From Prorocentrum cordatum (Eukaryota > Sar > Dinophyceae > Prorocentrales > Prorocentraceae), in contig CAUYUJ010018060.1 of assembly GCA_963575745.1 (NCBI GenBank), forward strand, positions 351,532 through 415,531: 64,000 nt of DNA, written 5' to 3'. The notes under the pieces are model-generated. The model saw nothing but the letters and a program-made list of their open reading frames with translations, did no database searches and was not told the DNA's origin. Position 1 is the stretch's first letter, and each line of letters begins with the position of its first letter. Made by a program: the position numbers and the translations under genes. Shown here in pieces: positions 9,578-37,751 of this stretch.

Positions 9578-9622
<45 letters not shown>

Positions 9623-15923: not shown

Positions 15924-16121
15924 TGTGAATGGGGTTGAAGTACAAAGGGTACAGAACCCCTGATCCGCTGGTAGAGGGAAGGAGGGATAGATGGATGTCT
16001 TTCCCTCCTGCACGATCAAAGGTCTGATCGATTTGTCCCAATACCTGAGCCCAAACGGCCAGGCGCAGGAGAGGTGAAGATACGGAGTATATATCAGGGT
16101 ATTACACGGATTCTATTCACA
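15924..16121 (-). repeat. 3' LTR of the retrotransposon
   Basis: 198 bp, starting TGTGAATGGGG and ending CTATTCACA on the plus strand. Contains TATATA-like sequence near 16087-16094, a candidate core promoter element in U3/R on the minus strand. About 97% identical to 33692-33888. Confidence 0.95.
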
Positions 16122-16160
16122 CACCCCGTCCCGAATCCCGCCCGTGAGGGTAGGACTCGG
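16122..16160 (-). promoter_or_regulatory. Candidate polypurine tract
   Basis: Read on the minus strand, the bases just before the 3' LTR end GGGATTCGGGACGGGGTG, a G-rich purine-biased run abutting TGTGAA. This is where plus-strand priming would occur. It is not a clean polypurine run, so the call rests on position. Confidence 0.45.
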
Positions 16161-16773
16161 GAACAGAGGAAAAGAATCCGTCACCCTTTTACTCCTTCAA
16201 TCCTCAAGTCTGTCAGGCAGCTCGGCGCAAATCTGGATAGCCTCAGCTGCAAGGTAAGGTAAGAAGGAACACCCAGGGTCCCTATTTCTTCGCCAAGCAC
16301 GCTTTGGTGCCCCCTCGGTGCGCCCCCAAAAAACGCTTCGGCACTCGAGGGCGGAGAAGAATGAGGCACGGGTGGGCGGAGAAAGAGGACCTGAGCAAGA
16401 TAAAGCAACATCATAATCTGCCTCGCCTAAGCAAGGCAGGCGTTGCCACCAGCGGTCTGAAGAGAGCTGCCCGTCAGATCATTCCCAACGCAATGTGAGC
16501 AGACTCTAAAGAGTATGCATTCTGGGATCGCGTTGATGAGCACGAACGTGTTACGAAACGCATCTATGTATCAAAGCAAATGTCTAGCCAGACGCAAGGT
16601 CGTGTTGATGAACACGAACAGTTGCATATATATAATCATAAATTCTCTATTTGGCGACTCCCGTTGGCGTTGCTCCTTAGGAGGCTGCCTTGGTTATCGC
16701 AAAATGTGTGTGTATGTGTGTGGCCACTTGTCTGAGATAGTGAAGTGGCCTAAAAGAATATAATGGCCACCGC
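16161..16773 (-). other. 3' untranslated region of the retrotransposon
   Basis: About 600 bp between the last coding segment and the 3' LTR, with no convincing gene. It is more AT-rich than the flanking host DNA. Confidence 0.5.
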
Positions 16774-18987
16774 TCAAGACGAACTTGTATTATAATGAAG
16801 TTCAAGCCTTTCGAGCGGTGGGCCTGGCGGCCGACTCTACTACGCGTTGCCGTTCTCGTAGAACCTGCGGTCCCACATCCTGTGGCCATCGTGCGCCACG
16901 TAGCTCGTCGCGGACGCATCCCAAGATGTCCTCGGGATCCAGTGGCGAAGCCACTTGTTGTACTGGATGTCGCGGACGTATACGAACTCGTCGTTGTTGA
17001 GCGCGATGTAGATCCAGCAGTTGATGTAGTAGCTCCAGTACCTGAGGCCCCACTGGCTGTCCTCTAGGTCGCCGCGCCACCAGGCGGCGTAGTCTGTCGT
17101 GCGCGCCCTCTTGGCGCGGGGTCTGTAGCTGCCATCGCTGTCCTGCCGCTGCGCTGCAGTGCCGCGCGGCCCCGCGAGCATGTAGTCCTGCGCGCCAGAG
17201 GCGCTGGGCCCTGCAGCGTCGCCAGGAGCGGGGCGCGGCGGCGGCGGCGGGCGCCGCGGCATGCGTGGCTCCATGGCATCATCAGAGTACTGGGAGTGTG
17301 TATCAGGTTCGATCGGATCGGTTCTCATTCCTGAATCAACCCCCCTCTGGTCAGTGGAACCCAAGGCAGATTCCATCAACCCGTAAGCAAGCGCGGCAAG
17401 CTTGCGCTGCGTGACTTTCTCACGGGCGCCATCCCGCCTGGGGAGGGCAATCGCGACAAGTCCGCGTGCCTGCCGCGTGCTTCTGTCGAGTCTGCCTTCG
17501 TTCAACCACCATTTCTTCCGACCAGCTTGGCCAGTCCTGATGCTGGTCTCGATGATTTCACATGCACCGCGCATGTCCTCAACGGTATAGGCCTTCTTGC
17601 CTGCATTAATACGAGCGCCTGTCATTTGGCGGTGGAACTTCAAATCATTGAGAAAACGCTGAACGAGATTGGCACATGGATGGTATAGAGGTCTGTCGTC
17701 TTCACGCTCGCCCATCAGTCTGCACTCGCGTGCAGGAGGGGAGCCAGAGGCGACCCACTTCTCATACCTCTTCCTTGCGGAATTGGCCAATCTCCTCAGT
17801 CCGTCGTTCTCATTGCCTGGAAAAAAGCGCTTACCTGTCATGATGACCTGCGTTCCGTCTCTCATGTACCTCGTGATGTCATCCTGGGAGAGCGTCGTCT
17901 TGATCCAGCGGGCAAGCTTCTGGAGGTATGCCAGGTCGCTCTGGACGGCAGTACTTTTACCCGTAGCACCTACAGATACAGTGCACTGCCAACAGATGTC
18001 GCAAAGGGTACCTTCAACTGTAACGATCCCTAGGGATAAGATGCGATCGCAATTCCGACACCGCGCGATATCATGCTGAATAGCTTCTGGGGCTCCGTCA
18101 ATCGTGAGGTGCTCACGAGATCCCCAGCGAGTTTCCCGACCACGAGCAAGACTGCGGCCGATCTGATCCATGGCATCGCGGTTGATCTCGGCGGTCGGCC
18201 GGGAAGCGATCGATCTGCTCATTCCCTCGATCTCGATCCTCGACAATCTTTCCCCTGGCAGTCCTATGCGCTCGGTCGTGTCGTTGTCCGCGTCCTCAGT
18301 ATCACCATGGCATACGTTTTCTGTACGGATACGGCTAGCCTCTTCCTGCAAGGCGGACTCGTTGTCACCCTCCTCGCGGTTGATTCCCTTCTGTTCGGCG
18401 ATGATCCGTACCATGGTTTCTTGATCGGGAGCTGCGGATGCAATGCTGCCTGGATCCTGGGGAATGTCCTGCTCCGCGCCTGGGTCACGTGGCGCGGCAG
18501 GTGTTTCCACCAGCTCCGTCCATACGGGGAAGCCTGGATTGCCGAATGTCTTGATGCAATGTGTAAATAGATCACGCAGCGTCTGGAGTGCAGGATGGTT
18601 CTGATGAATAGCATCTTTTGTGAAATCACGGAGCTCCCCAATACTGTCCAGCAATATGAGTTGATACACTTTAGAGATCCATTGGAAGACGCCTGTAGTC
18701 GACTCCTCGATGACCTCTGGGTCCAGGTAGTGCACCAACTTTTTGAAGAAGCTGTCTGCACTGCAAATTGGTAAGTCGCGCGCCCATTTGTGGGTATGAT
18801 TGTAATCCAAATAGTATGTCTCCGCGTTCCATGTTTTGGATCCAAATTGAATTTCAAATCGTAAGTACGACTGTACTTTATCCACCACAAATCTGTCCGC
18901 GCCAGTGTGCACCTCACTGATTTGCTTCACCTTTATCATAGGCGAGTCCACCAATAGCTCCGACGCCCAGCGGTATATGCGGTGGTC
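16774..18987 (-). CDS. Retroelement extra ORF 6: zinc-ribbon-like protein, unknown function
   Basis: Uninterrupted from the TTG codon at 18954 (first ATG a few residues later) to TAG at 16840: 704 residues. The same frame is open upstream to the TAA at 18988, where it joins ORF 5. A cysteine cluster at residues 299-324 (CRNC, then CDICWQC) looks like a zinc ribbon. Residues about 150-290 are acidic and glutamine-rich, and 560-640 are Pro/Arg-rich (PRRPPPPPRP), probably disordered. The C-terminus is rich in Trp and Tyr (WRGDLEDSQWGLRYWSYYIN). The stop is a doubled TAG TAG, and the frame then stays open for another 20 codons to a TGA at 16774. I do not recognise the family. Confidence 0.75.
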
Positions 18988-19827
18988 TTATGATTGTTTG
19001 GTCCACTTTGAGTCCTCCTCTGGGTCGTAGTCGGGGTGGTTGAGGAAGTCTTCTGGCGGGTCAATAATATTGTCGAGGATGCTCGCGTCGACGTGTTCAT
19101 CTGCTTGGATCTCTGCTGGTAGATCTGCTCTCATATTGTCAGTTGCCGCTTTCTCCTCGGCAGTGAGTGGTATGTTTGATATATCCACAATAACGGTAAC
19201 CAGAGGTTCAGCAGATTGGCCTGCCTTTTGTTGGTGTCCATCGTGCGCGGGAGCAGTATCCTCGGCAGATGTGGCCACCAGCTCCTCAGGATCGGGTGTC
19301 CGAGAAGCGGGCCGTCTGGTCGGTGTACGTGGGATACGTGGCTTATAAATGCTCGGCATTCCGAGATATGGTAGATCACAATCTGTGCTGTGCTGAAGTA
19401 TTTTGTCACGGCATGAGGATGGTCCTTCCAGCGCAGTATTCATGTCTCTCGGGTCAATGTCGGCACGAACTGGTAAAGCAAAGACAACGCCCTTGAGAGG
19501 CATGCTTTTGTCATTGTACCTTATGTTTACCCATGGTAAACCGTAGTTGAGGATAGGTATTTGTACCGCAAAGAACTTGTCAAATACTCCGAAATGAACG
19601 ATTGGGCCGTATATGTGGCCCTCGTTCATGAGGACCTTGGGGTTGTGATTGCCCTTGGGGTAGTGATTATCATAATGATAACAATTGGTAGATCCCCAAT
19701 TCTTAGTGATAATGAAGTCCCCCATGCGAACATCATTAAATATAGGCCGACGATTCCAATCTTTCTGTGTAATATTTGATGTGATGGGTCGAAGAGCCTC
19801 TCGGGAGTATGACATAGCGATTAACCA
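18988..19827 (-). CDS. Retroelement extra ORF 5: unknown protein
   Basis: 275 residues from ATG at 19815 to TAA at 18988, in the same frame as ORF 4 upstream and ORF 6 downstream. The short gaps are open and protein-like (WLIA before the ATG; DHRIYRWASELL after the stop). The N-terminal 150 residues are rich in Asn, Tyr and His (NWGSTNCYHYDNHYPKGNHN) and look globular. The C-terminal part is Pro/Glu/Asp-rich and probably disordered. No known domain is recognised. It may be a separate protein or one segment of a polyprotein with its neighbours. Confidence 0.7.
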   Translation of the reverse strand, partial: WLIAMSYSREALRPITSNITQKDWNRRPIFNDVRMGDFIITKNWGSTNCYHYDNHYPKGNHNPKVLMNEGHIYGPIVHFGVFDKFFAVQIPILNYGLPWVNIRYNDKSMPLKGVVFALPVRADIDPRDMNTALEGPSSCRDKILQHSTDCDLPYLGMPSIYKPRIPRTPTRRPASRTPDPEELVATSAEDTAPAHDGHQQKAGQSAEPLVTVIVDISNIPLTAEEKAATDNMRADLPAEIQADEHVDASILDNIIDPPEDFLNHPDYDPEEDSKWTKQS

Positions 19828-20880
19828 TTATGTATCTTCTGTTTTGTGCTCGCATTCGTCGATCATAGCACGGACCATTTGTTCGTCCAAGGCGTTGGCG
19901 CCAAATATGCGGCCAGCAGGGGTTGCCCCCAGCTGAGGGGCAATCGGTCGCTGAGCCGAAGATGCTGATGCTGACGACGTCCTTGGCTGCTGATCCATGT
20001 CGTGATCCATGTCAGCTGGTGTAATCCAAGGAGGGTTATCGATGAACTCCTGTCCAGGGAGAACGGCGCAAATTTCGCACTGGCTCAATGGTTGTCTCGC
20101 GGCCAATGGCGGATAGTCCCAGGGCGGGCCCTCCGGCCATATCTGCTGGCCGTGCGCGTGGCGTGGTTGGAGACGGCGAATTGCAATGACTGCCGCTGCT
20201 GGAACCACGTCCTCTGTCATAATAGCGCCTTGAGCGCCCAACCAAAATCTGCAACCAGCTTTTGTGGCGATCTCCATGTTGATCACCAGCTCGACCTCGT
20301 TCTTGTAGTGATTGAACTTGTATGACTGTACCGAGGTGTGGGGAGTCTTCTGGACATTGTCTATATATGTGCTGGAACTGAAGAATCCCTCCGTGCGTTG
20401 TGATGGTTTATGATGCTTGTCTCTCTGAGAAGATGGATCAACGTAGCCAGGAATGATCCCTGTCTTGAGGATGTTGCGCCAAGCGCGGAATGTCGTGCCG
20501 TGGTGGAGGTATTTCACGTCTGTCCATCGTAGGCCCCCCCAGCCCATGTTCCACGGTTTGGAAAGTGGATTGCCGCAGTTGTGGCCTCCAACACATCGAA
20601 TGGCAATAACGCTGTTCCAATCGAAACAGCTGGGATCACCTCCCTCGGGGATTGGTTTGGCGTATATCTCGATCCGATTCTTCAGCGGGTCAATATGTTT
20701 CTGGAACGCGCGAATGATGAAGATCGGGTAATAATCGTTCCAATCGGGATACCCATCTTTCTCGCCATCTTTTTTGAAGTGCGTCATGGCCGCATCCATG
20801 GATGGTCCGTTGTGGTTTCTACGGTCACTGAATTTCCATTGGACCATCTCCTGAAAGGATTTCCAAGTACGTAGGATCTT
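19828..20880 (-). CDS. Retroelement extra ORF 4: KptA/Tpt1-like RNA 2'-phosphotransferase fold
   Basis: 339 residues from ATG at 20847, open upstream to the TAA at 20881. Residues 83-213 carry, in order, the hallmarks of the KptA/Tpt1 family: IRCVGGHN (83-90, like IRAxQGHS), LHHGTTFRAWRNILKTGIIPG (114-134, like LYHGT...I...GL), GFFSSS at 154-159 where HVHLS is usual, and FWLGAQGAIMTED (201-213, like FYxSxNGVxLT). Family members use NAD+ to remove an internal 2'-phosphate from RNA, and relatives ADP-ribosylate nucleic acids. I do not see the N-terminal lobe with its catalytic Arg-His pair, so the activity may differ. Such a gene in an LTR retrotransposon is unusual. A role in modifying RNA ends, the primer tRNA or host RNA is inference only. 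Confidence 0.72.
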   Translation of the reverse strand, partial: KILRTWKSFQEMVQWKFSDRRNHNGPSMDAAMTHFKKDGEKDGYPDWNDYYPIFIIRAFQKHIDPLKNRIEIYAKPIPEGGDPSCFDWNSVIAIRCVGGHNCGNPLSKPWNMGWGGLRWTDVKYLHHGTTFRAWRNILKTGIIPGYVDPSSQRDKHHKPSQRTEGFFSSSTYIDNVQKTPHTSVQSYKFNHYKNEVELVINMEIATKAGCRFWLGAQGAIMTEDVVPAAAVIAIRRLQPRHAHGQQIWPEGPPWDYPPLAARQPLSQCEICAVLPGQEFIDNPPWITPADMDHDMDQQPRTSSASASSAQRPIAPQLGATPAGRIFGANALDEQMVRAMIDECEHKTEDT

Positions 20881-21183
20881 TTACTCACGATATGTTGTCT
20901 TCGGCCAAATGTTGATACGTCGATCGTAAAATTGATTGACGTAGAACTTCTTGTAGTGGATCTCGTGGCGTAACATCGTCGTGCTGTCTTTGCTCATGTA
21001 TTTGGGCTCTCCGAGCCACTCATGAAGTAAGTCAGGACCATAACGTATATCGTCGTAATGTGGTAACGATATCCACTTCCACTCTGGAAAGCAACCAGAT
21101 TGTGCAATGTCAGGAGCATGAGCAATCACACAATCGTCGCGTTGCAACTGATCGAACCTCGTCTTGCAGGCAAGCAAATCCAT
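20881..21183 (-). CDS. Retroelement extra ORF 3b: C-terminal half, unknown
   Basis: 100 residues of natural composition (WKWISLPHYDDIRYGPDLLHEW). The segment at 21110-21190 overlaps the end of ORF 3a in another frame, and both frames carry protein-like sequence on their own sides, so one frame shift near 21150 probably splits a single gene. The TAA at 20881 is followed in frame by KILRTWKSFQE and then ORF 4. Confidence 0.65.
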   Translation of the reverse strand: MDLLACKTRFDQLQRDDCVIAHAPDIAQSGCFPEWKWISLPHYDDIRYGPDLLHEWLGEPKYMSKDSTTMLRHEIHYKKFYVNQFYDRRINIWPKTTYRE

Positions 21184-21685
21184 TGATCGCGGATCTACCC
21201 CGCAATACTGGAGAAACGTACGGGTGGTCGTCCATGCTGCCTGCTTGCAGCTTGTACTCTCGAGTAGCGCATCCGTTATCGAACATCCCGACCTGGCTGA
21301 TGTCCTCGTACATAGAACGCTCGCAGCTGTCCTGCCATGACAATAAATTCACCGTGTGTGGAGAAGGGTCGTCGTCGGCAGGAGTTGCCTCCAGCTCCAT
21401 CGCATCTAGGTCAGTGCCGTCGTCTGGGATCGGGACTGCCTCGGCTTTCGGGAGCTGATCTGCTGGCGGTTGGTCCGCTGGCGTACGGCTTGTCAGCGGG
21501 CCAGGCGTTGATGGCTCTGGCACGGCTATCGGTTGCGGGCCAGGCTGCAGTGGCTCGGGCAATGGGCCTGGTGGTGCTGGCTGGTCCGCCTCGGCCGCCG
21601 CGCGCCATGCGGCAGTCGGAACATCAGGATCGTATCGAGAAGAATGTTTTGCATTATTCGATGGTCTGTTGGTTCTCGGCAGCAA
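21110..21685 (-). CDS. Retroelement extra ORF 3a: Pro-rich N-terminal half, unknown
   Basis: 191 residues from ATG at 21685, overlapping the end of ORF 2 by 32 nt. Residues 25-110 are a Pro/Asp/Glu-rich linker (PLPEPLQPGPQPIAVPEP), followed by a more structured part (NLLSWQDSCERSMYEDIS). The sequence after about residue 165 looks out of frame, and the true continuation is ORF 3b. The overlap with ORF 2 may be a +1 shift inside one polyprotein or a real overlapping start. Confidence 0.6.
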   Translation of the reverse strand: MLPRTNRPSNNAKHSSRYDPDVPTAAWRAAAEADQPAPPGPLPEPLQPGPQPIAVPEPSTPGPLTSRTPADQPPADQLPKAEAVPIPDDGTDLDAMELEATPADDDPSPHTVNLLSWQDSCERSMYEDISQVGMFDNGCATREYKLQAGSMDDHPYVSPVLRGRSAINGFACLQDEVRSVATRRLCDCSCS

Positions 21686-23094
21686 GGCCGATACGGTGAG
21701 ATTTCAACCTGCTGCCTTCTGCAATGAGTCGTGATTTGGTCGCGTTATCGTATCCGTCCAAATCGGTAATCTGCTGTAGAAACTGCTCAAACACAACCCA
21801 AGTAACAACATGTGCATCTTCCACTGTTTTGATGATCTTGGGGTGGCGGAGCTCTTGTTTCTCGACTGAATCCCAGGATGCCCATGCCCCAGGATAGTCG
21901 TTGATCAGCAATAAGAGGTACTTGACTAAGTCGTCGTATGCAGGACCAAATGGGTCGTTCTGAGGAATAGCCTTGTTCGGCTCGCGAGGATCAAGTGCTG
22001 GTGGCTGTGTCGGGATTCCAGGAATAGGTACATTCGGATCACCTGCGGTAGCAGGCAGTGATGCCGACAGCGTACCATCGGCACATGATGCCATCCAAGC
22101 ACAATGGGCCATCTCGCCTGCTGTCTGTGTCATCAGCGTCGTGAGGCTGAGATCTCTCTTCCATTCGTTTGTCATCCTCTCTCTGAAGTCGAGAGCCTCC
22201 ATGATCTCCTTGGCCTGCGTGTAGGCCTGCCCGTCCGTGACGGGAGTCAGGATGGGAGGCCTGAATGGATACGGCTGAGAAGGCAGTGACTGAATCAAAG
22301 CGCAGAAGTTACGATAGCATACTGCGTCGCAGAACTGTGTCGTAAACATTGCCATGTTGTGGTTGTTCTGGTTTGCATGCCAAGCCTGTGGCGTAATTCT
22401 ATCGCACGCTTCTATCCAATGGCCTGATGGAAGAACTGTAATACCACGATTTTGCATCGTCCTGATCAAATCGTCCGTGTGGTAATCAAAGTTCGGGTGC
22501 ATGCCCCACTGCGCTGCTTTGCCAGGCCCCATAACCGTGGGGCAACGGAAGTACTGCATCACGTCGACAAAGCGTGATACATCCACTTGTACGTGTACTG
22601 GCATGAGCGTCGGGACGCCGCCCTCACATTCCGTTTTCTGGAGCTCGCGCGCGGCAGTAGGTGCTCGATCCTGGTGACGACGCATGTCCACGGTGTTCTG
22701 TCCGTGGTTGGCACATGCGATGTCGTTCGCGCTCCATACCACCATGGCATTGAGGCCTCTGCAATAGTGTCTTTGTTTCACATATGCAGGAAAATCATTG
22801 GCCCAATAATTCCAGATGACCTCGTTTAATTCACGCCACTTTCTGATAGAGGCGTTGTCGCTGTATAACATGAGGCCTCTGGCCTCGCGGATCATCTTGA
22901 TCATGTTGCGCTGCTCGAGGGTGGACTCAAACTGGTTGTTGAGAATAGCTGTGGTACGGCTCTCCTGTGTCTGCGTGCGCTGTTCACGGAGTTCTGCCAT
23001 GCCATAGCGGGTGTCTCCGCCAGCCTCTGACAATTGAATGCAATCTTGGCCGATCGGCGTGTCGTTCTGTTTGAACCATCCTTTGTAATTGCCA
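21654..23094 (-). CDS. Retroelement extra ORF 2: unknown 459-residue protein
   Basis: Open from the codon after the TAG at 23097 to TAA at 21654. The first possible start is TTG at 23033 and the first ATG lies a little further in. The preceding in-frame residues (FGNYKGWFKQNDTPIGQDCIQ) are also protein-like, suggesting fusion to ORF 1. The interior is well mixed, rich in Met, Trp and His (PSGHWIEACDRITPQAWHAN), with a Pro-rich linker at residues about 335-370. No family is recognised. Confidence 0.7.
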
Positions 23095-23096
23095 AA

Positions 23097-24194
23097 CTAG
23101 AATGCCCACATCATGGTGTCGTCGCGGATGATGGTCGACAAATGCTCGAGAGTAGCGCCGCCCATGCATTCCGCGCGATTGAGGCGCGGCAAAAATAGCG
23201 GTACAAGTGCAACGTTTGATACTTTGGCGAGATGGTCTCGCTTCCGTGGACAGCTGAGCTCGTCAATGCCGCGACTTGGGTACTTCTTGTGCTTTGTACC
23301 CTTGGACCCTTTCTTGGGCTGCATAATCCATGTTGAATCGGTGTACAAGTTGGTCCATGTGTATGCGCGCCCTGATGGACCGAAGGCATGATGCAAAAGA
23401 AGTCCCAAATCTTCTTGTACGAGTGAATACAACCCGTTATCTGAAAGAAGAGTAGAAACCAACCGACAACCACAAAACGCGCTGTACTTTGCTTGTTCAA
23501 GCTCGAGTGGGTCAATATCAGGACCAGGAGTAAGACCAAGGTCAACCTCAGAAGGAGTCTCGCCAATGAAGACGGAGCCCTCGTTGCATGGTTGCCAACG
23601 ATAAGTACTTGTCATAGTCTCGTCGTTCTGTGGTATTGCCTGCCAGCCGTCAGGATGATCGAATCGCGTTGCCACCGTCTCGGAGTATGATCCGATACCT
23701 CCGAAGCCTCCGCGTGCAGTCAGCCATGTGCTGAGCTTGCGGCGGAATTTGCTTGTCTGGCTAATGTCGGAAAATGCTCGCATTTCGGTGACCAGATTAT
23801 CTTCAACAGCGTGGCCGATGTGTCCCGCAGTATCCGATGCCCTGGCTAAGCCAGGTGGGCGTGTGGGTAACTTGATCGTTGAACGATCAAGTTTAGGAGC
23901 ATAGCTTGGGGTTGTCAATCCATTGCTGTATACATCAGAAGGTGCACAAATACCATTTCCATAGTAGTGTTTTGTATCCTGAACGCTGTCCTCGGCATAT
24001 TGTCCCAGTACTGCACTGCCAATGTTGGACCAATCGTTGCGAAACATCATCCACTCCGTCTTCAATATCACCGTCGTGAGGTCCATTGGCGGGCACTTGC
24101 GGTGCGCTCCTGGGATCACTGCGTTCAAGCGATCATGTGAACCACGAACACTTTCTTGCACAGACGAGTTACGAGTGAAGAAGCTGGAAATCAT
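23097..24194 (-). CDS. Retroelement extra ORF 1: unknown 365-residue protein
   Basis: ATG at 24194 to TAG at 23097. Balanced composition (LKTEWMMFRNDWSNIGSAVL) and no low complexity. The frame continues into ORF 2 through the single TAG. Near the start all three frames look protein-like, so the true N-terminus may lie further upstream after a frame shift. I do not recognise a domain. Confidence 0.7.
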   Translation of the reverse strand: MISSFFTRNSSVQESVRGSHDRLNAVIPGAHRKCPPMDLTTVILKTEWMMFRNDWSNIGSAVLGQYAEDSVQDTKHYYGNGICAPSDVYSNGLTTPSYAPKLDRSTIKLPTRPPGLARASDTAGHIGHAVEDNLVTEMRAFSDISQTSKFRRKLSTWLTARGGFGGIGSYSETVATRFDHPDGWQAIPQNDETMTSTYRWQPCNEGSVFIGETPSEVDLGLTPGPDIDPLELEQAKYSAFCGCRLVSTLLSDNGLYSLVQEDLGLLLHHAFGPSGRAYTWTNLYTDSTWIMQPKKGSKGTKHKKYPSRGIDELSCPRKRDHLAKVSNVALVPLFLPRLNRAECMGGATLEHLSTIIRDDTMMWAF

Positions 24195-24205
24195 GCACGT
24201 AGCCC

Positions 24206-24592: not shown

Positions 24593-24862
24593 TTATTTGC
24601 GCCTCGCACACGGCGAACAAGATGCCTGTAGGCTATGTGGCTCGAGTCGTAAAACTGCTGCGGCATGAACGCACAATGAGTGTCCTAGAGACCTCTCTGT
24701 ATCCTGTGGAGGTGAGGGAGGATGGCGGGGCTGTCTACCGTGCGGGGAACGGGCTCTCGAACGAGGCGTGCGCGAACCGGTAGTTGCGGCGGGTACACCA
24801 ATGTGGTACATACATGCACATATGCCCTCGTGATTGGCTTGTCCAACGCACTGCGTTCCACA
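24593..24862 (-). other. Open segment after pol
   Basis: About 90 codons open in the pol frame between TAA at 24863 and TAA at 24593, with composition rich in Ser, Arg and Pro in the middle. It may be untranslated spacer or a read-through extension. No domain is seen. Confidence 0.3.
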
Positions 24863-25560
24863 TTATGATCCTACCTCGCCCCATCTTTCTTCTTCTGTAA
24901 GTAATATTTTGCATACTTCCGGACATCCATCCAGTTTTGGAGGTTCTGCAACATGAGGTAAACCGTCGGGCGGCCCTTTCAGTGGTTTCCATGGTTTCTT
25001 TGGAGGACATCGTACCGGAGCAGCGGGAAAGATGAGCGAGTGTTCCAAGAGGTCCCTCCAGAGGTCTGCTTTCGTTGGCTCGAAATGTTTGGTCATCATA
25101 TCTGCAATCTGCTCTTTTGTACCTACATATTTGAGCTGAATATGTTCGAGTTGGCATGTCTCGCATATCCAATCCAGGTTAATACGGTGAGTACGATGAA
25201 GATGACGAAGTGCTGGTGCACGTCCCTTTTGGACAATTTTGATCACGGCCTGGTTATCCTCGAGGACGATAAGACGCACTTTGGGAGAACTGATCTCCTG
25301 AGCTGGTTCTGGATCCACGTGCAATACGGTACCCTCGTGGGATATCGTACGCCTCTTTGGAGGCGTAGGTAACTCCGTCTTTAGCGGTAGTTGCCTACGG
25401 CTAGGAGAAGATCCCCTTGTGGGGGGTGCCTTGCGAGGTGATGGCTTGCGCCGCTTTTTGGCGGCCAGTGTCGGACACGTCGCTGTGTCGGCGCGCCCCT
25501 GGCAGCCCATGCAAGTATTTATTTTTGCATGTTTTGGCAACTCCCACCACGGCTTCCCAG
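24863..25560 (-). CDS. pol: pol: RNase H C-terminal half and tail
   Basis: It follows the N-terminal RNase H segment after a +1 frame shift somewhere in 25450-25560. VRLIVLEDNQAVIKIVQKGR and RTHRINLDWICE, then IQLKYVGTKEQIADMMTKHF, are the characteristic copia C-terminal RNase H motifs. The tail after ADMMTKHF continues another 70 residues to TAA at 24863. The insert before the motifs is Lys/Pro-rich and probably a linker. Confidence 0.85.
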
Positions 25561-25808
25561 CACGAGAGTAGTGGTAGTCCTTCCAGTCGTAGCGCTGAGT
25601 CAAGAGCAACGATCTCGGATTCTGTAGATGAATGCAATACAACCGTTTGTTTCTTACACACAGCGTTGACCGGGAAGAACGCATTAGGTCCAACAAGCGC
25701 GGCGAAGACGCCGGTAGTGGACTTGGATGATGTAATGCAATCGGCGAACGAGGCGTCAGTGAAGAACATGAAAGATAAGTTGTCTGACGAATCACCTATC
25801 CATCCGTG
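25401..25808 (-). CDS. pol: pol: RNase H N-terminal half
   Basis: RNase H degrades the RNA strand of the RNA/DNA hybrid. FTDASFADC and SKSTTGVFAALVG, then KKQTVVLHSSTESEIVALD, match the copia RNase H signatures, with catalytic Asp and Glu visible. It is in the same frame as the preceding connection segment and separated from it only by TAA at 25809 (THW, stop, HGWIGDSS). Confidence 0.9.
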   Translation of the reverse strand, partial: HGWIGDSSDNLSFMFFTDASFADCITSSKSTTGVFAALVGPNAFFPVNAVCKKQTVVLHSSTESEIVALDSALRLEGLPLLSCWEAVVGVAKTCKNKYLHGLPGARRHSDVSDTGRQKAAQAITSQGTPHKGIFS

Positions 25809-26477: not shown

Positions 26478-26523
26478 GTCACTACCGCTTTTGCGGATAT
26501 AATCCCAGCCAGCTTGTAGATTG

Positions 26524-27180
26524 TTAGCTGGTCCGGCTAATTTTTAAGTCGTCCACATATACTGAAAGTATCAGTCCCAGTTTGTTGTGTCCCCATACGC
26601 ATTCCCATCCTGGAATAGGCTCGAAACCAACGCTTTCCAAGCATGTGCGACACTTGCGTTCCCAAAAGACCCCTGCAAGAGGGTGTCCGTATAGTGCCAA
26701 TCGTAATCGGCACACTGGATTTTTGTATTTTGACAAGGATGCCGCTTGGCGCCATTTGGGTATGGTAATCCAAGTACCGACTGGATCGATTCGTCCGTCG
26801 CCATATAGTAATGCCTGAGTGCAGGCTCCAGGTGCATCACTTTGTTCGCCTGCATATTGTGGCAATAATGCAGTAGCATCGCAAAGTTTGGAAGCCTCAA
26901 TACGCGAAGCACTGGAAGCTGCGTCGGCGCATATGGCGGCCAAACCAGTTTCATCTTTGCCTGTATTGCCCTGAACCACCACTCTGCCCTTAAATTTACG
27001 TAGATCAGGTGGAAGTTCTTCGTGTTTGACTGAAGATAGCTCCAAGATATTGAAGAAATGAACTTTCGTCCCAGTGCGAAGAGCTTGCGACTCAATATCA
27101 GCTTTTTCTGCAACAGTCTCCAACATCCACGTTTGTTTCTTTTCCAATCTCTCGTATTCTTTTCGCAGGGCTTCCTGTGC
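26524..27180 (-). CDS. pol: pol: reverse transcriptase fingers/palm
   Basis: RNA-dependent DNA polymerase. In the 207-residue open segment ending at TAG-free TGA-free sequence up to 26524, RKFKGRVVVQGN (50-61) opens the domain. SDAPGACTQALL (103-114) holds the motif A aspartate. VCRLRLALYGHPLAGVFWER (146-165) is the copia block and YVDD (197-200) is the catalytic centre. After YVDDLKIS the frame is lost near 26524; the next segment resumes at LDPPTPYSQYLG. All polymerase aspartates are intact. Confidence 0.9.
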   Translation of the reverse strand, partial: AQEALRKEYERLEKKQTWMLETVAEKADIESQALRTGTKVHFFNILELSSVKHEELPPDLRKFKGRVVVQGNTGKDETGLAAICADAASSASRIEASKLCDATALLPQYAGEQSDAPGACTQALLYGDGRIDPVGTWITIPKWRQAASLSKYKNPVCRLRLALYGHPLAGVFWERKCRTCLESVGFEPIPGWECVWGHNKLGLILSVYVDDLKISRTS

Positions 27181-27289
27181 AAGTGGTTATGCGGCAACTT
27201 CTTTCTTACTCAGGCTTCTGGTAACTAGGGCCGGGCGTGCCCATGAGGAATCGGGGATTTTGTCTCTGTGTGCCGGTGTGTAGGTCGTC

Positions 27290-28098
27290 TCACGTGGCAT
27301 AGTGGGTATTGCTACCGACTGGGTGAACTGGCGTATAAGCGGGTTCATGGTCCCAAAAGTCGGTCCCCTCACTATCCACCAGTACCAAAGCACGTTCTTC
27401 TCCAGCGTGCTGTTGCGGGGTTTGGCGGTAGTACAGTACCGTAGTAATGTCACGTGGCCCACCAGGTAGTTTGGCATACAGTATCTCTTTGTTCGTCACG
27501 CCCTTGACGTTTTCGTCACGGATGACCGCGCCGTTGTCAGTGTCGTACGTAATCCTTCGTTCCACAGTATTCCATGTGGGTCCGCCGGCTGCAGTGGTAC
27601 GGAAATTGTTGACCTGTTTGTCCTGTCTTGTCCACACTCGAAGTGCATCTCGGTCACGAATCTCACGAGCTCGTTCACGTCTTCGGCGTACTCGATTTCT
27701 TTCTTCTGTTGTCCACGAGATAAGGTTTTCCAATGCTCTGGAAGAATGTGATCAAAACGCGTAGTAGTCTGTACACGTGTCTCGCGGCCACGGACCACCA
27801 TTTTGCCATCTGGCGTTATCTTTGGAAGCTCATAGAATCGAACCAGGCCGGTCCATGGCTCGCTCAACTCCCTGTGGTCGTTGGCGCTGACACCGTCCCA
27901 AACATCGCGAAAGTCACTTTCTCCTTCAAAAATAGAAGTCGTCTTGAAATCTCGTGTCACGTCGAGTTGATCAACAGGTACAGGTATGATCATGACGTCG
28001 TCCGTCGGGATGAACAATTTCTTGCGTGGAGCACGTATGTGTGATGACGCAATATCCGCGCTGTTCCCAGTAGTCGGGCTCTGGCGCTGGTGCAGCAA
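27290..28098 (-). CDS. pol: pol: linker between integrase and reverse transcriptase
   Basis: Two overlapping open segments (27496-28098 and 27290-27733) in different frames, with protein-like sequence switching between them at about 27600-27700 (FDHILPEHWKTLSRGQQKKEI in one, RVWTRQDKQVNNF in the other). The first follows the integrase C-terminal segment after a frame shift near 28040. This region is poorly conserved in copia elements and no domain is expected. Confidence 0.7.
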
Positions 28099-28651
28099 CT
28101 TCAGAGGCCGATGCGTAGATATCAGCGGCGTTGTCTTCCGTTGTCATCATAGACGGGTCATCCCATTCTTTAGGGTAGGAAAGTGGAGGATCGGGCATTG
28201 GTTTGTCGCCCAAGGGGCGAGAAGCAGATGCCTTGACCTCATCGTGTGCCTCAGGGTTGTGGTGTCGCAGGGTACCTTCTTTCACTGGGTAGGTGAAATT
28301 GCCATCAGGGATGATGATGTCTTTGACTCTGTGCACGTGACACATTTCCCCATCGGGGTTCTTGGCGTATGTAGCCGTGTCCAAGACAAGATAGTCACCT
28401 GACCATCGTCCACCAGAGTGTAAATGGTAACCCATGAATACCCCTTCCCGAGCATTTTCTTTGAACTTTGCAGTCTCGTTATTAATCTCGGGGTTGCGGC
28501 ATTTCCAGGAGATCCGAGCACCGAAATCAATGCAGTGCCCGGGCAAACTTTCACCAAAACGTATTTCATGAGCTGTCTTATCGACATGCTCCTCGCTGAG
28601 GGCAGCAACGCCCGTGGATGTATGCACAACATTATGTCCACAGCTAAAGGC
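27971..28651 (-). CDS. pol: pol: integrase C-terminal region
   Basis: It continues the integrase frame after TAA at 28652. The block FGARISWKCR, later EGVFMGYHLHSGGRWSGDYLVLD, corresponds to the copia integrase C-terminal GKxxxxGxxxG-type region just after the catalytic core. The TAA falls where the family normally continues without interruption (EWWKEAM, stop, AFSCGHNVV). Confidence 0.8.
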   Translation of the reverse strand, partial: AFSCGHNVVHTSTGVAALSEEHVDKTAHEIRFGESLPGHCIDFGARISWKCRNPEINNETAKFKENAREGVFMGYHLHSGGRWSGDYLVLDTATYAKNPDGEMCHVHRVKDIIIPDGNFTYPVKEGTLRHHNPEAHDEVKASASRPLGDKPMPDPPLSYPKEWDDPSMMTTEDNAADIYASASEVAAPAPEPDYWEQRGYCVITHTCSTQEIVHPDGRRHDHTCTC

Positions 28652-29230
28652 TTACATGGCCTCTTTCCACCATTCATGTCCCAGACCAGACATATGTAAC
28701 ACAGCTCTCGTACCGAGAATGACAATCTTGACGACGCGCTCGATCAATCCATTCGTTTGCGGACGATGCGGCGCACTCGTGTCGCGTCTCCATTCCAGTT
28801 GGCGGCAAGCCTTCTGAAGCGCTCCAGAATTGTCTGTATAGATGTGCTTCACCTCATCGTTCGCGGCGATGAACTGTTGAAAGGATGCCTTTGTGGTAGC
28901 TGCGTCTTTGTGTAGTGCTGGGTAGGCCATGAAGATGCCGGTGTATCTATCCAGGACAAAAAGTGCATACTTGTCGCCGTGCCTGTCCGCGGCATCGTCT
29001 TTGGCCAGGGCGACATGGTCGGCAGTTAAAGCTTCCCCAAACTTCTTCGGGACAAAAGCTTCGTAGGCTGTATCCTCGTCGGTGGGGTCTGCCGGTGGAC
29101 GTGGTTTGCGCTGTCGTCGACACGGAGCATTCTGCGCCATCGCGCGAGAACAAATTTCACAGTCAGGGTGTTTTGGACTGTGGGTCATGGTGCGTCGGGT
29201 GCACTAGTGTAAGTGTCTCCGTCGGAATGT
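28652..29230 (-). CDS. pol: pol: integrase zinc-binding and catalytic core
   Basis: Integrates the cDNA into the host genome. HPDCEIC at the start is the cysteine end of the HHCC zinc site; its histidines lie just upstream in the overlapping frame (HPTHH), so a frame shift splits the motif near 29170. The catalytic triad is visible as D57 (LTADHV), D119 (YTDNSG) and E150 (NGLIER), with 30 residues between the second Asp and Glu, a little shorter than the classical 35. PHRPQTNG precedes the Glu as usual. Confidence 0.88.
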
Positions 29231-30131
29231 CGGCATCTGCTTGAGCTGTATCTGCTAGCCCCCCGCATGTTAGAGGGGAACACTGCGTCTGAGACGTAGT
29301 CGAGTCGGTGGGTGTGTCCACGTTAGGCTCGGCGTTATTTGTGTCGGGAAGTTCTTCGACCGTTGCGGTCCGTGCTCCACCTCCCTCTCCGACATGTGGT
29401 CTCTTGGGGCAGGTCCCTATGTGGGGCCGTAGCTCATCTGCAGTCGTTGACTGCTCTGTAGTTTTGCAGCACCAACAAATGTCGTTGCAGCGGGCGGACG
29501 AACGCTTGCGCTGACGACGTCGGGGCGCTGACGAAGTGCATAGACGTGGTGGTGGTATCAGTGTCAGGTCGTCGAGTCGTAATTCTGGAACTCTATTGTT
29601 GACTGGAATATTATACCACTGGCCCCACGGATCCTGAAGCAAGTAGCCCAGCTCAGGATCCCAAAGCTGCCGAAAGCTATCAACCTCGATCAATTTCCCA
29701 CCTGATAGTAAAGATGGACAGTCTGGCAGGGCAAGGGCTGAACTATGTAAGCCAACCTCGGGTAGCCGTATGTCGTAGTGCTCGTTGACAGTACGATCAC
29801 CGTTGGCGGCTTCCAGAATATGCTCTTCGCGAATAGATATGCGATCCGATTCGGTCTGCGTCAGTTCGTGTTTACCCGGAATATAATGCGCAGAACCACT
29901 GTCGAGAACCCAAGATCGTGTCAATGCAGCGGTCGAGCGTGGTGGGTCGACTTGCATCGTCGTTGTCTTCGTCTGGGCTGTCTTTGATGACTGCTTGACA
30001 GCGTCATCGTATTCTCGGGTCGCAGTTGGTGTGACCACCGACTCTTTGTTGTGTCGATAGTCATATAGATCTACCATAGCTGTGCCTCTTTTTGACATTC
30101 TCGTAGAGCGTCTGCACTTTGATCCCACCAT
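29163..30131 (-). CDS. pol: pol: aspartic protease
   Basis: Matures the Gag-Pol polyprotein. WVLDSGSAHYI (residues 74-84) is the copia protease active site (D-S/T-G). Downstream there are LLSGGKLIEVD and an Arg-rich stretch with CNDICWCC, leading to the integrase. The segment joins the preceding one by a frame change in 30070-30110. Confidence 0.85.
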   Translation of the reverse strand: MVGSKCRRSTRMSKRGTAMVDLYDYRHNKESVVTPTATREYDDAVKQSSKTAQTKTTTMQVDPPRSTAALTRSWVLDSGSAHYIPGKHELTQTESDRISIREEHILEAANGDRTVNEHYDIRLPEVGLHSSALALPDCPSLLSGGKLIEVDSFRQLWDPELGYLLQDPWGQWYNIPVNNRVPELRLDDLTLIPPPRLCTSSAPRRRQRKRSSARCNDICWCCKTTEQSTTADELRPHIGTCPKRPHVGEGGGARTATVEELPDTNNAEPNVDTPTDSTTSQTQCSPLTCGGLADTAQADADIPTETLTLVHPTHHDPQSKTP

Positions 30132-30358
30132 CGTTGTGGTAGCGGGTCTGGTACATTGGCAATGTCACCCTCGTCCGGCATCTCCTTCCATTTATCCAGT
30201 CTGGCCCTGCCAGATACGGTATGTAGGCAATATTCCACATTACGTGTGTCGAATCGTATCCGACGGCGTGTTTTGGTAGATGTCGTAGTGACCTTCGTGT
30301 TGGCCATGAGGGTCTTGTCACGAATGACGCAACTGCGGTCGGAACGGCGTGAGCGTCG
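30071..30358 (-). CDS. Gag-Pol junction segment
   Basis: Open in the same frame as gag directly after the TAA at 30359, so gag and pol are separated here by one in-frame stop. That resembles retroviruses that translate pol by stop-codon read-through, but it could also be a nonsense mutation. QRWWDQSADALRECQKEAQL reads as protein near its end, and then the frame moves to VDLYDYRHNKE of the protease segment. Confidence 0.6.
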   Translation of the reverse strand, partial: RRSRRSDRSCVIRDKTLMANTKVTTTSTKTRRRIRFDTRNVEYCLHTVSGRARLDKWKEMPDEGDIANVPDPLPQRWWDQSADALRECQKEAQLW

Positions 30359-31100
30359 TTAGCTGGCAGGAGAACGTGATCTGGCGTGGGGGGGACCACA
30401 GGACGAACCACGGCTCGGGGAACGTCTGCCACGTCCTTTGTCACTACCATATGATCTATCACGGCCGCGCGGGCTGCCGCGCCCGCCGCCACGGTTGTCT
30501 CGTCCTCGCGAGGTAGATCTCGAAGATCTGTCGTATCGACTTCTCGATTGCCTGCGAGAGTCTAGAGACCTCCTGGATGTTGAACGAGATCGGTCGTATT
30601 GGCGTCGGTTGTCACGTCCATGGCGTGAGTCGTTCGCGTAGCGGAACCCCCCGCTTTGTGAAGAACGTTGGCTTCCTGATCCGCGGGATGGTGATCGGCC
30701 ACGACTATCCTGACTGGAGGCCCGTGGTCGACTCGGGCTTCGCTCGGGAGCCTTCGCACCAGGTGTGAGATGTGCGCATTTGCATTTGTCGCCCTTGGGG
30801 CACTTGTTCTGTGCGAAGTCTTTACACTGTGCAACGTGTGGAAAGTTGCACTTGTCGCCTCTGGTGCATGTGTTGCGCTTGGCGAACTCGAAGCAAAATG
30901 GTTTCGATGCTGGCTTCTTGTGATTCGCAGGAGTTGACACGGTGCGGCGGGAGCTGCCACCAGCTGTCGATGCTCTGGAAGATTTGTTGTTCTTCCAATC
31001 CCTGGAATATGTATGCAAAACCTTGCGCCGTTCACCATTGCGACAATTTCCTTTCTTCCAGGCAGCGCGCGCATTGACTTGAGAACGTGTCATGTTCGTA
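30359..31100 (-). CDS. gag: gag: nucleocapsid with two CCCH zinc fingers
   Basis: Nucleocapsid part of Gag, expected to bind element RNA. Two CCCH fingers lie in tandem. The first is CFEFAKRNTC...C...H (C94, C103, C109, H113; C-x8-C-x5-C-x3-H). The second is CKDFAQNKC...C...H (C117, C125, C131, H135; C-x7-C-x5-C-x3-H). Most retroelement Gags use the CCHC knuckle. After the fingers comes a long Arg/Ser/Gly tract (RSRYDRSSRSTSRGRDNRGG) typical of RNA-binding tails. Ends at TAA 30359. It joins the preceding gag segment by a +1 shift near 31080. Confidence 0.88.
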
Positions 31101-32660
31101 CCGTAACTTAGTGTGATTCTTCTCCAATTGTTTGAGCTCCAGTACGTCCAGGGCGCGCTGTCGAAGCCAATCATAGGTTCGATTCGGGTCGCTGATCTTC
31201 ATGCGCTGGTACTCGTACATGTCTTGTTTCATCCAGGCATGTCTTCGAATCTGTGTGCGAAACAGAGATTCCAAGATCTTTGGATCGGGTGCTTCTCGGC
31301 ACTCCAATCGTAAAGCGTCCCAGTCAGTAATAAAACGTTGCAAACCTTCATCCCTCACCCTCAGTTCTTTAAGGCGCTCGAAGTCGTGCAGGTCGTCATC
31401 AACCTCTGTCACCTTGTAGGACTGTAGGATGTGCCAGTATATCTGGCGTCCTTTGAGCATGCGTCCTGCTTTGTGCTCTCTGGTTTCGATGGGCCTGATT
31501 TGGTAGCGCAAGTCTGAGGATAAGATGTCGCTCAGAGCGGTAGCGAGTTTGCAATCGGTGCTCTCAAAGTCTCCACTGTCTTGTAAGTCCTCGAAGGTAC
31601 ACTCGGGCTGTTCGGCCACGCATGGGAAGGCATATGCTTTGGATGGTCGCCCCGAGGCGGCCCCAAAGTTCTTCCGTACCTTTTGCTGCCACTCGAGCAG
31701 CTGCGTGATCTTAGGCAAGACAGGGGCTCGGACGGTGTCTGACTCCTTGATAGGAGTTGTAGTATGGACCGAAACCGCAGACAGTGGTTGCGAGGGTATC
31801 GGTACACCGTCAGCAGTCGGTTCTGCGCGCACAGGAGACACATGGCGTGTCTGTGCAGAAGCTGCCGCGGAGGCTGCTCCTGGTGACGTACGTCGCTGTT
31901 GTCCTGCAGAAACTTGTGGTGCTTCAGCGGACGCTGCCGTCGGCCTTTGCAGGTCGGTTGCAGGTCGAAGGTGGAGACTGGTGTCGTTGGTGTGGTCGAT
32001 CAGCTGATTCGTCCAGCTCGTCATGTCTTCGTGTATTTTGGCCGCCCTTTGGCGCGTGTACTCATCAGTATCCCGAGAACGTTGTGAGTACCGATCACGT
32101 CGTTGCTCGTAGGCTCGGAGACGGGCGCCTTGTGCCTCCAGCTCGCTTTCCAGACGTGCGAGGAGCCCCTCGACACGTACTTTCTCAATATCTCTCTCAC
32201 GAATAACCTGGGAGAGCTCCAACTCCGCGTGGTCCGCCGCCTTCTCAACCTCCTGCAACCTGTCAGTGAGGCGGGCGAAATCGTAAACCGTGGGAGGAAA
32301 ATCCAGCTGGCCAGTCTGGGCTCGTCCGACACGCAACTCTGCCAGGGCGTCCTGCACACCAGGAAAACGCTGCTCGATTTCAGAGATCCGGTTAGCGAGT
32401 GGCTGCACGACAGCGTTGGTCGCATCAAGCTTTTGAGTGATGACTCTCTCAGTACGCTGCAACATGTCGATCAGGTTCGACGAGTTGGTGTGTGCTTCGT
32501 TGCGAAGCGTCGCCGTAGTGTGGTCTATGTGGGATCGAAGATCATTGATCTGAGACGGAACGTCGCCAAGGTCGGTGGCCTCGGCTGGTGTTGGTCGGTT
32601 GCGGAGCTGGTCGTGGATCTCATCGTGTAAGATCCTGACTGCTGAACGCCTGTGTCGCGT
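31032..32660 (-). CDS. gag: gag: capsid-like core
   Basis: Structural Gag region. The N-terminal third (from IHDQLRNRP to about 31990) is alpha-helical and heptad-rich (VEKAADHAELELSQVIRERDIEK), probably coiled coil. Then comes a Ser/Ala/Thr linker, and a globular C-terminal part with YWHILQSYKVTEVDDDLHDF and LEKNHTKLRYE that resembles a copia capsid domain. The segment begins out of frame with the N-terminal gag ORF (a -1 shift at 32640-32700). Confidence 0.8.
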   Translation of the reverse strand, partial: TRHRRSAVRILHDEIHDQLRNRPTPAEATDLGDVPSQINDLRSHIDHTTATLRNEAHTNSSNLIDMLQRTERVITQKLDATNAVVQPLANRISEIEQRFPGVQDALAELRVGRAQTGQLDFPPTVYDFARLTDRLQEVEKAADHAELELSQVIRERDIEKVRVEGLLARLESELEAQGARLRAYEQRRDRYSQRSRDTDEYTRQRAAKIHEDMTSWTNQLIDHTNDTSLHLRPATDLQRPTAASAEAPQVSAGQQRRTSPGAASAAASAQTRHVSPVRAEPTADGVPIPSQPLSAVSVHTTTPIKESDTVRAPVLPKITQLLEWQQKVRKNFGAASGRPSKAYAFPCVAEQPECTFEDLQDSGDFESTDCKLATALSDILSSDLRYQIRPIETREHKAGRMLKGRQIYWHILQSYKVTEVDDDLHDFERLKELRVRDEGLQRFITDWDALRLECREAPDPKILESLFRTQIRRHAWMKQDMYEYQRMKISDPNRTYDWLRQRALDVLELKQLEKNHTKLRYEHDTFSSQCARCLEERKLSQW

Positions 32661-33547
32661 ACGAGCACAAGCTGTTGCTCCATCTGCACAAGGTAGTTGC
32701 GCAGGTTTTCGACCATTGCCGTTCGTTCACCCGAGTGTGACACCTCACGATCAACCTGGTACTGCAGTTCACCTATGATGCGTCGATCTTCGGCGATCCT
32801 GGAATCAATGATCCCTAAGGCGCCGTAAAGATCTCGGCGCATGGCTGCAGTATTGGCAGCGTTCGTCTGAACGCTCTGCAGTAGTCCAGAATATTGCCTG
32901 GACACGAAGGTTTCAACCTGGTCTCTGAGCTCAGCTATTTCACCTGCGGCGGACGTTTCCGCCAGCTGGTCGTCTGAAATGGAGAGGTGGGGAGCGTAGG
33001 CTTCCCTCTGCTCCCTCTCGCGAGGAGCGATTGGCCTCTGAGAGGCTGTACGCGGGCTCGACCTACTCTCGCCGCATGGGCCTGGGGTCCCACGACGGTT
33101 GCGCGCGGACGAGCTGCGGCTAGGACCGTGTGTGCGCGGTGTCTCATCCGATGATACCTTGGGATACTGCGTCTGCGGCTGTGCCGCCACTGGTCTACTG
33201 AGTTCCTCGAGGGTGGCTACGTGCTCCGCAACAGGAACGGTCGCAGGGCTGGTGGTACCAGCGCCTGAGGTCCATCGGCGGTTAGCGCGAAAGCGCCCTG
33301 GAGTATCAGGACCAGTGAGGCTTTCGCCTGACGCAGTTGGGATTGCTCCCGACTGACGAGGAGATGGAGGATCGAAGGTCGGCGTGCGAAACTCCTTCCT
33401 ACCTGTTCCTGCTCCTTTTCCTGCCCCCCCGCGGGCGGCGCTGCGGTGAAGTTCAGCAGCTAGACGCGCCTCGGGTCCGTCGGAGCTGGGGGGGGGGGGT
33501 ACCTGGGACACCAACACAATCCGCACTAAGGCTCTCCAACCCATCAC
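32525..33547 (-). CDS. gag: gag: N-terminal region
   Basis: Up to 340 residues from ATG at 33547, although only sequence to about 32650 is in the true frame. The first 160 residues are Pro/Arg/Ser-rich and disordered. Residues 195-305 (EIAELRDQVETFVSRQYSG, then RTAMVENLRNYLVQMEQQL) are helical. The start is uncertain; the upstream leader has a G10 run at 33491-33500 that is prone to length change. Confidence 0.7.
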   Translation of the reverse strand: MMGWRALVRIVLVSQVPPPPSSDGPEARLAAELHRSAARGGAGKGAGTGRKEFRTPTFDPPSPRQSGAIPTASGESLTGPDTPGRFRANRRWTSGAGTTSPATVPVAEHVATLEELSRPVAAQPQTQYPKVSSDETPRTHGPSRSSSARNRRGTPGPCGESRSSPRTASQRPIAPREREQREAYAPHLSISDDQLAETSAAGEIAELRDQVETFVSRQYSGLLQSVQTNAANTAAMRRDLYGALGIIDSRIAEDRRIIGELQYQVDREVSHSGERTAMVENLRNYLVQMEQQLVLVRDTGVQQSGSYTMRSTTSSATDQHQPRPPTLATFRLRSMIFDPT

Positions 33548-33679
33548 CGAGCCGTCGCGCTGTCGGAGAGCTCGGACGCGAGGCCCCGATGGACCCCTTA
33601 CAGCGCATGCGCCGCTTGGGTTCCATCGAGGCCGCGTGCGAGGTCGCGACGCGGGGTTCGATGATCAGTGAGCTTTAAA

Positions 33680-33691
33680 GGGCTGATAACC
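33680..33691 (-). promoter_or_regulatory. Primer-binding site
   Basis: Directly inside the 5' LTR the minus strand reads GGTTATCAGCCC. It is complementary to GGGCUGAUAACC, which has the form of an anticodon arm with loop CUGAUAA, i.e. an isoleucine GAU anticodon. Drosophila copia begins its site GGTTATGGGCCC and is primed by an internal fragment of initiator tRNA cut in the anticodon loop. A similar half-tRNA mode with another tRNA is plausible here but inferred. Confidence 0.6.
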
Positions 33692-33888
33692 TGTGAATGG
33701 GCTTGAAGTACAAGGGTACAGAACCCCTGATCCGCTGGTAGAGGGAAGGAGGGATAGATGGATGTCTTTCCCTCCTGCACGATCAAAGGTCTGATCGATC
33801 TGTCCCAATACCTGAGCCCAAACGGCCAGGCGCAGGAGAGGTGAGGATAAGGAGTATATATGAGGGTATTACACGGATTCTATTCACA
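33692..33888 (-). repeat. 5' LTR of the retrotransposon
   Basis: 197 bp, TGTGAATGGGC to CTATTCACA. Differs from the other LTR by five substitutions and a 1-bp indel. Contains the TATATA-like stretch at about 33855-33861. Followed by the TCCGC duplication. Confidence 0.95.
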
Positions 33889-37739: not shown

Positions 37740-37751
37740 GAAACACAGCAC

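Follow-up and report, generated by a model that had tools for sequence, protein, structure and literature searches.

A decayed giant Ty1/copia-type retrotransposon of Prorocentrum cordatum with a probable Pol extension of about 2,660 codons and a Tpt1/KptA-like domain

Long terminal repeat (LTR) retrotransposons are usually described as needing gag and pol only. The question raised by an element of about 18 kb in the dinoflagellate Prorocentrum cordatum is what a further 8 kb of protein-like sequence represents between its RNase H and its 3' LTR. The element lies in a stretch of 64,000 nucleotides, referred to here as the window (contig CAUYUJ010018060.1, positions 351,532 to 415,531, assembly GCA_963575745.1; 4.13 Gb in 21,875 contigs). 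Our analysis indicates, with a probability that we put at roughly three in four, that it is a decayed copy of a giant copia family in which the Pol frame runs about 2,660 codons past RNase H.

The boundaries of the element, as proposed in an earlier note made from the sequence of the window alone, were recovered in full: the LTR coordinates, the TG...CA termini and the 5-bp target-site duplication (TSD) TCCGC on both sides were all as claimed. Over 197 aligned bases the two LTRs have 192 in common, and their alignment contains one gap. The element is oriented on the minus strand, a point absent from the earlier note, so that the repeat at 33692-33888 is the 5' LTR:

15919..15923, no strand, TSD TCCGC, one side
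15924..16121, minus strand, 3' LTR, 198 bp
33692..33888, minus strand, 5' LTR, 197 bp, TG...CA on the element strand
33889..33893, no strand, TSD TCCGC, other side

The element is not a single accident but belongs to a family of giant Ty1/copia-type LTR retrotransposons of about 18 kb with many copies. When the assembly was searched with the LTR, the best 40 of 1,487 first-look candidates were scored, both window LTRs being among the 40, and all of them matched at 96% or more. Among 28 other LTR loci with flanks, 20 had gag on the inner side and are thus 5' LTRs, seven had the 3' end of the element and two had neither, one locus, L014, being counted in both of the first two groups. A second full copy, first picked out by its two LTRs about 18 kb apart (C13996:33707-51759), is colinear with the window element from LTR to LTR at 93.3% and 90.5% identity, and has its own TSD (GCCTT) and LTRs identical at 195 of 197 positions. 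The other 5'-LTR loci, none of which was selected for its downstream content, were followed through a 4-kb stretch (six loci), through a 1.5-kb stretch around the end of RNase H (twelve) or through the LTR flanks (L016), while C13996 was examined whole. The extension sequence was present in 19 of these 20 loci. It was found in all six loci with 4-kb stretches; in the 12.9-kb deletion derivative C21865 the stretch held the 3' end only, and the Tpt1-like segment described below was placed there by the genome search. Eleven of the twelve 1.5-kb stretches showed the extension directly, one of them (L057) with a deletion in RNase H, and in the twelfth (L065, on C8525) the stretch stops short of the junction and the genome search placed the Tpt1-like segment at the expected distance. 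On the 3'-LTR side, all six loci examined, which had been chosen for a matching flank, continue through the whole extension, one of them (L035) with a deletion further into pol.

A search of the assembly with the open reading frame (ORF) of the Tpt1-like segment, which by its nature finds segment-bearing copies only, gave a similar picture: the best 116 of 1,921 candidates, the window copy included, were all 82-100% identical, 88 of the 116 had no stop inside the segment, and one lay within an open frame of 2,849 codons. The searches with the LTR and with this ORF thus show that other copies carry the extension between RNase H and the 3' LTR, and the proposal of a distinct giant copia lineage in which the extra 8 kb moves with the element is supported by the second TSD-flanked copy and by the extension in 19 of the 20 5'-LTR loci. 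The two outcomes that the earlier note had named as contrary to it, copies with the same LTRs lacking the extra 8 kb or a neutral, unrelated nested insertion, were not encountered in the copies examined.

Side observations on the LTR loci concern their arrangement. At L014 (G000:C16597:192441-192637) two elements in head-to-tail arrangement share an LTR, which is flanked by the gag of one and by the 3' end of the other. At L005 and L021 the LTR lacks element flanks, is bordered by 5-bp duplications (TCCCC and TGTGG) and looks like a solo LTR.

The copia pol domains were found in the order that had been claimed, on the minus strand (protease, rve, RVT_2, RNase H):

30359..33664, minus strand, gag region with CCCH zinc fingers, frameshifted in the window copy
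29163..30164, minus strand, ORF with the aspartic-protease motif WVLDSGSAHYI (DSG, motif by eye)
28652..29203, minus strand, integrase core rve, PF00665, E 5.8e-6, below gathering score
26524..27186, minus strand, reverse transcriptase RVT_2 (copia type) with YVDD motif, PF07727, E 7.9e-7, below gathering score
24866..25808, minus strand, RNase H region, end of the standard Pol, placed by position and by eye

Integrase precedes reverse transcriptase in both the window copy and C13996, and because of this order and of the RVT_2 match the element is placed with Ty1/copia, on pol scores that are below the Pfam cut-offs. The same families were matched in C13996, again below gathering score (PF00665, E 2.8e-7; PF07727, E 8.8e-6), and PF07727 was the sole family listed for those reverse transcriptase pieces in either copy. 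The RNase H ORF (24863-25795) had no Pfam match. The gag of C13996 spans 1213 codons from stop to stop and has CCCH zinc fingers in three stretches, with no CCHC knuckle among its Pfam matches.

Beyond RNase H, the distance from the TAA codon at 24863-24865 to the 3' LTR is 8.7 kb, and a single coding frame takes up 8.0 kb of it:

24863..24865, minus strand, junction codon TAA
16840..24862, minus strand, C-terminal extension, about 2,660 codons, one frame, broken in the window copy
16122..16839, minus strand, 3' untranslated stretch, without codon-position bias in element 17001-17500 and with indels mostly in non-multiples of three

The window copy is degenerate, with frameshifts and eight tabulated in-frame stops, counted from the junction codon on, and its extension ORFs are therefore pieces of one frame. 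In the copy L038, one frame can be followed from RNase H to the final stop, 0.7-0.9 kb short of the 3' LTR, and is interrupted by two stops in 3,005 codons, while the other two frames of its extension contain 71 and 136 stops. The 'cargo genes' of the earlier note are for this reason not supported in the plural: there is one frame, either fused to the RNase H end of Pol or one stop codon away from it. Several separate genes are ruled out by the long ORFs of different copies, which overlap in one frame, by the nearly fully open L038 and by the open frame of 2,849 codons in another copy. An alternative genetic code was also rejected, as the stops that break the frame, TAA and TAG in the window with TGA in addition in other copies, mostly differ from copy to copy, so that decay explains them.

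The extension shows the marks of a protein-coding sequence that has been conserved. When other copies are compared with the window, the differences fall preferentially at one codon position over most of the extension, the preferred position shifting where the window copy is frameshifted, and no such preference is seen in the next 500 bases (element 17001-17500). Relative to L038, 115 of 249 indels in the extension are multiples of three, against 8 of 60 in the 3' untranslated region and LTR, counted per copy so that shared indels are counted repeatedly. Pairwise ratios of nonsynonymous to synonymous substitution (dN/dS, NG86) against three copies had medians of 0.20 (35 comparisons), 0.305 (36) and 0.32 (28), with a range of 0.11-0.65, after leaving out ORFs shorter than 270 codons, comparisons shorter than 120 codons and alignment scores up to 600, the L038 frame including 345 codons of RNase H. 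For the window/C13996 pair, dN/dS was 0.29 over 2,181 codons of the extension, and 0.43 for gag, 0.29 for protease, 0.54 for integrase, 0.24 for reverse transcriptase and 0.34 for RNase H. The ratio stays near 0.2 in pairs with dS near 0.5, and is higher (up to 0.65) in young pairs, as expected for dead copies that are drifting. The dN/dS medians, together with the codon-position and indel-length biases, bear out the purifying selection on the extra coding sequence that the earlier note had asked about, and we conclude that the extension was inherited with the element, in one frame and under purifying selection, while the family multiplied. Two points speak against this: the dN/dS pairs and the indels share ancestry and are hence non-independent, and at L016 homology ends at window position 27732 in the stretch examined, with no extension there. 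The extra sequence has the appearance of a C-terminal extension that the element itself encodes, with one enzyme-like domain or more, and not of a captured set of host genes.

Directly behind RNase H, seven of 19 copies carry a TAA codon and the other 12 a GAA codon, while each of the other stops in the frame occurs in at most two copies in the stop table. In a tree built from the 1.2 kb around this site, rooted at its midpoint and read without taking support values into account, the TAA copies are scattered and include early branches of both subfamilies, which suggests that the junction site has been switched or exchanged more than once. Re-initiation at the TAATG overlap was rejected, the ATG being out of frame by eye. 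In SIRE1, a copia element, the env-like protein is reportedly made through suppression of a stop codon, and some copies here have a stop at the junction. By analogy, the extension may be made as a fusion with Pol, directly in GAA copies or via read-through in TAA copies, a proposal to which we give an even chance.

What this extension might do is suggested by its middle part, which very probably holds a domain related to the Tpt1/KptA family:

20190..20980, minus strand, Tpt1/KptA-like segment (RNA 2'-phosphotransferase / ADP-ribosyltransferase family) in the extension, boundaries approximate

The Pfam profile PF01885 matches all 11 copies, and our confidence in the domain, already high, was raised a little further because five of the 11 score 26.6-28.8 bits, against a cut-off of 26. 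What is matched in most copies is the C-terminal NAD lobe, and the match of L044 extends over profile positions 6-176 of 177. In a profile-profile comparison (hhalign) of a ten-copy profile with nine KptA sequences, the alignment had an E-value of 3.7e-7 and a score of 55.1 over 98 columns, compared with scores of at most 23.0 when the columns were shuffled 50 times and of 11.6 when the profile was reversed. Other alignments from the extension gave E 0.14 (A3) and 0.86 (A7), while A6 (1.6e-5) and A8 (0.0099) each contain part of the Tpt1-like segment in one row and are hence not clean controls. The LRH, KxR, GHS, HGT, R...SS and FW...G motifs are present in the KptA order, and the candidates for the Arg-His-Arg-Arg tetrad, placed by eye, are conserved in 10 of 10 (LRH), 11 of 11 (KxR) and 8 of 10 (fourth arginine) covered copies. 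The segment is like Tpt1/KptA RNA 2'-phosphotransferases in its profile match and in having HGT and further motifs in order (PMC6333775), and unlike them in being embedded in a retrotransposon polyprotein, in its wider motif spacing and in passing the Pfam cut-off in 5 of 11 copies only.

Several observations count against this assignment and have to be set beside it. PF01885 remains below the cut-off in six of the 11 copies (20.3-22.6 bits, with the window copy at 21), and the hhalign alignment covers the NAD lobe only (98 columns), leaving out the RNA lobe, whose motifs are spaced about twice as widely as in KptA. The HGT motif of the NAD+ pocket is intact in 8 of 11 copies and changed in three (HGA in two, DGT in one), and the fourth arginine is altered in 2 of 10 covered copies. 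A profile search of the PDB with the copy alignment found no chain at E 10, and a single-sequence search of the PDB gave chance-level lytic transglycosylases only; Tpt1 structures such as 1WFX are described (PMC6333775).

The following course of events may be envisaged. Gag and Pol would be made as in other copia elements, and the Pol frame continues past RNase H for about 2,660 codons to the stop 0.7 kb before the 3' LTR. Most likely Pol, carrying the extension in part or always, would be packaged and then cut by the protease. Inside the particle the Tpt1-like domain would then work on the element RNA or the tRNA primer, either by taking off 2'-phosphates or by ADP-ribosylation, and would in this way repair or shield them against RNA cleavage by the host, while the remaining 2,300 or so residues would be structural or binding domains that are not yet recognisable. 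That the domain works on RNA in the particle in this manner is a tentative proposal, to which we give somewhat less than an even chance. The fuller version, in which Pol has become a giant polyprotein with its own RNA-repair or RNA-ADP-ribosylation enzyme and large additional machinery, made across a stop that leaks or is missing, and in which retrotransposition depends on this machinery (for example to reverse cleavage of the element RNA or tRNA primer by the host), appears doubtful.

The alternative that survives best concerns the substrate: the Tpt1-like domain may be a repurposed ADP-ribosyltransferase that acts on protein or DNA rather than on an RNA 2'-phosphate, its target being for instance a silencing factor of the host or the ends of the cDNA of the element. 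The NAD lobe is indeed the part backed by hhalign, and enzymes of this kind have been described as able to ADP-ribosylate nucleic acids; however, LRH and KxR of the RNA lobe are conserved in every covered copy, and the Pfam alignment of L044 starts inside that lobe. We regard this alternative as unlikely.

It is improbable that the extension is instead a third ORF of the env-like or movement type, comparable to that of Sireviruses, encoding a structural or membrane protein made by stop suppression, with an incidental likeness to Tpt1. Such an ORF occupies the same position, between RNase H and the 3' LTR, in the same superfamily, and the stop in 7 of 19 junctions recalls the suppression reported for SIRE1. 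Env-like ORFs are, however, several times shorter than the approximately 2,660 codons found here, the Tpt1 match exceeds all of the shuffles, and no membrane-spanning stretch was found by hydropathy in the extension of L038, the sole segment above threshold lying ahead of the extension, at residue 61.

A mere passenger, still present because drift has yet to remove it, would fit the deletion derivatives and the dN/dS of up to 0.65 in young pairs, in agreement with neutral decay after insertion, but the ratios near 0.2 at dS near 0.5, the two biases and the 88 of 116 scored copies free of stops in the Tpt1-like segment make this very improbable. As for the idea that an unrelated element, or sequence captured from the host, is nested in a single ordinary 9-kb copia copy, the window copy alone could look so, with its broken ORFs and no recognised domain over most of the region, but the junction is at an identical position in the loci examined, in frame with RNase H, and this common junction refutes it and leaves it scarcely credible.

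The extended Pol frame, which remains our preferred reading, has relatives of several kinds among known elements. Extra ORFs behind pol are well known (PMC7264820, PMC11963269, PMC5408684), and one parallel is with the Sireviruses, a plant Ty1/copia genus of the SIRE1 type, which have a copia pol and many of which are reported to carry extra coding sequence between RNase H and the 3' LTR (PMC2829016); the extension described here likewise lies on the sense strand in that interval. It differs from theirs in its roughly 2,660 codons with a Tpt1-like domain, in having no membrane segment and no env-like ORF, and in the alternation of TAA and GAA. The plant Ty3/gypsy element Retand also has an unusually long region from pol to the 3' LTR, but this is given as 2.9-6.6 kb with antisense ORFs (TRP28) and, in about half of the elements, tandem repeats (PMC11963269), whereas here it is 8.7 kb, sense and in the Pol frame. 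LTR elements of bdelloid rotifers are described as having an accessory enzyme (a DEDDy exonuclease or GDSL esterase) besides gag and pol, in a different host, lineage and domain and as a separate ORF3 (PMC5408684). Retrotransposons with an added DNA methyltransferase (DNMT) in Symbiodinium (LINE, DIRS) and Klebsormidium (Gypsy) are similar in their added enzyme, which is under purifying selection and lies inside Pol in DIRS and Gypsy; in that report such dinoflagellate elements do not include Copia, those of Symbiodinium being without DNMT domains (PMC5890265), whereas the element here is a copia with a Tpt1-like domain. In open-access titles and the beginnings of abstracts, none of the matches listed reported a retrotransposon with KptA or Tpt1, and none of those listed from the open-access literature reported a Pol extension in a copia element that is this large and includes a Tpt1-like domain, most subscription papers lying outside both searches.

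The family has thus multiplied while carrying an additional protein, some 2,660 residues long, which selection has kept. If the Tpt1-like domain is active, a retroelement would harbour an RNA-repair or RNA-modifying enzyme, which would point to RNA damage or tagging as a limit on retrotransposition in this host. Expression of the extension could be tested in these copies, since they form a natural series of stop and no-stop junctions.

Searches with the other 2,300 or so residues of the extension found nothing convincing in Pfam, NCBIfam or the PDB. The Pfam matches Mig-6, zf-FPG_IleRS, Zn_ribbon_9 and Tox-ART-HYE1 (E 0.019 to 0.8) were treated as chance; Tox-ART-HYE1, an ADP-ribosyltransferase family, was matched in one of the nine members of A3. 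NCBIfam gave two matches to the extension, both far below cut-off, and viral contigs scanned with two extension alignments yielded no relative. In the protein database, the middle of the extension had no match among 5,182 candidates, while a control search with the integrase gave 16. The first third had one match among the best 8,000 candidates by sharing, which were scored: P0017, of 188 residues, from a Pyramimonas sp. data set, with 72% identity over 166 residues. A relative may therefore exist outside the P. cordatum assembly, or the Pyramimonas sp. data set may be contaminated.

A further feature lies just inside the 5' LTR:

33684..33691, minus strand, putative primer-binding site start GGTTATCA, directly inside the 5' LTR

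The same GGTTATCA stands next to the 5' LTR in 19 of the 20 other 5'-LTR loci, and GGTTTTCA in the remaining one; there is no tRNA gene within the window. No clear long purine run was seen by eye upstream of the 3' LTR. The 52-bp flank that ends at the left insertion point (15872-15923) is repeated at 83% just to the right of the element (34019-34070), which places the element in a local repeat.

Elsewhere in the window, an ORF at 37740-38867 (plus strand) with an endonuclease-like start (GTWNVEGL...) appears by eye to be a fragment of a non-LTR retrotransposon, and another at 2544-3752 (plus strand) has a motif, HSLRIDGATALL, that by eye recalls tyrosine recombinases and perhaps a DIRS-type element, neither having a Pfam match at 0.01. 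Long arrays of the trinucleotides TCC, TCA and CAT occupy 5409-6472 and 7613-9634.

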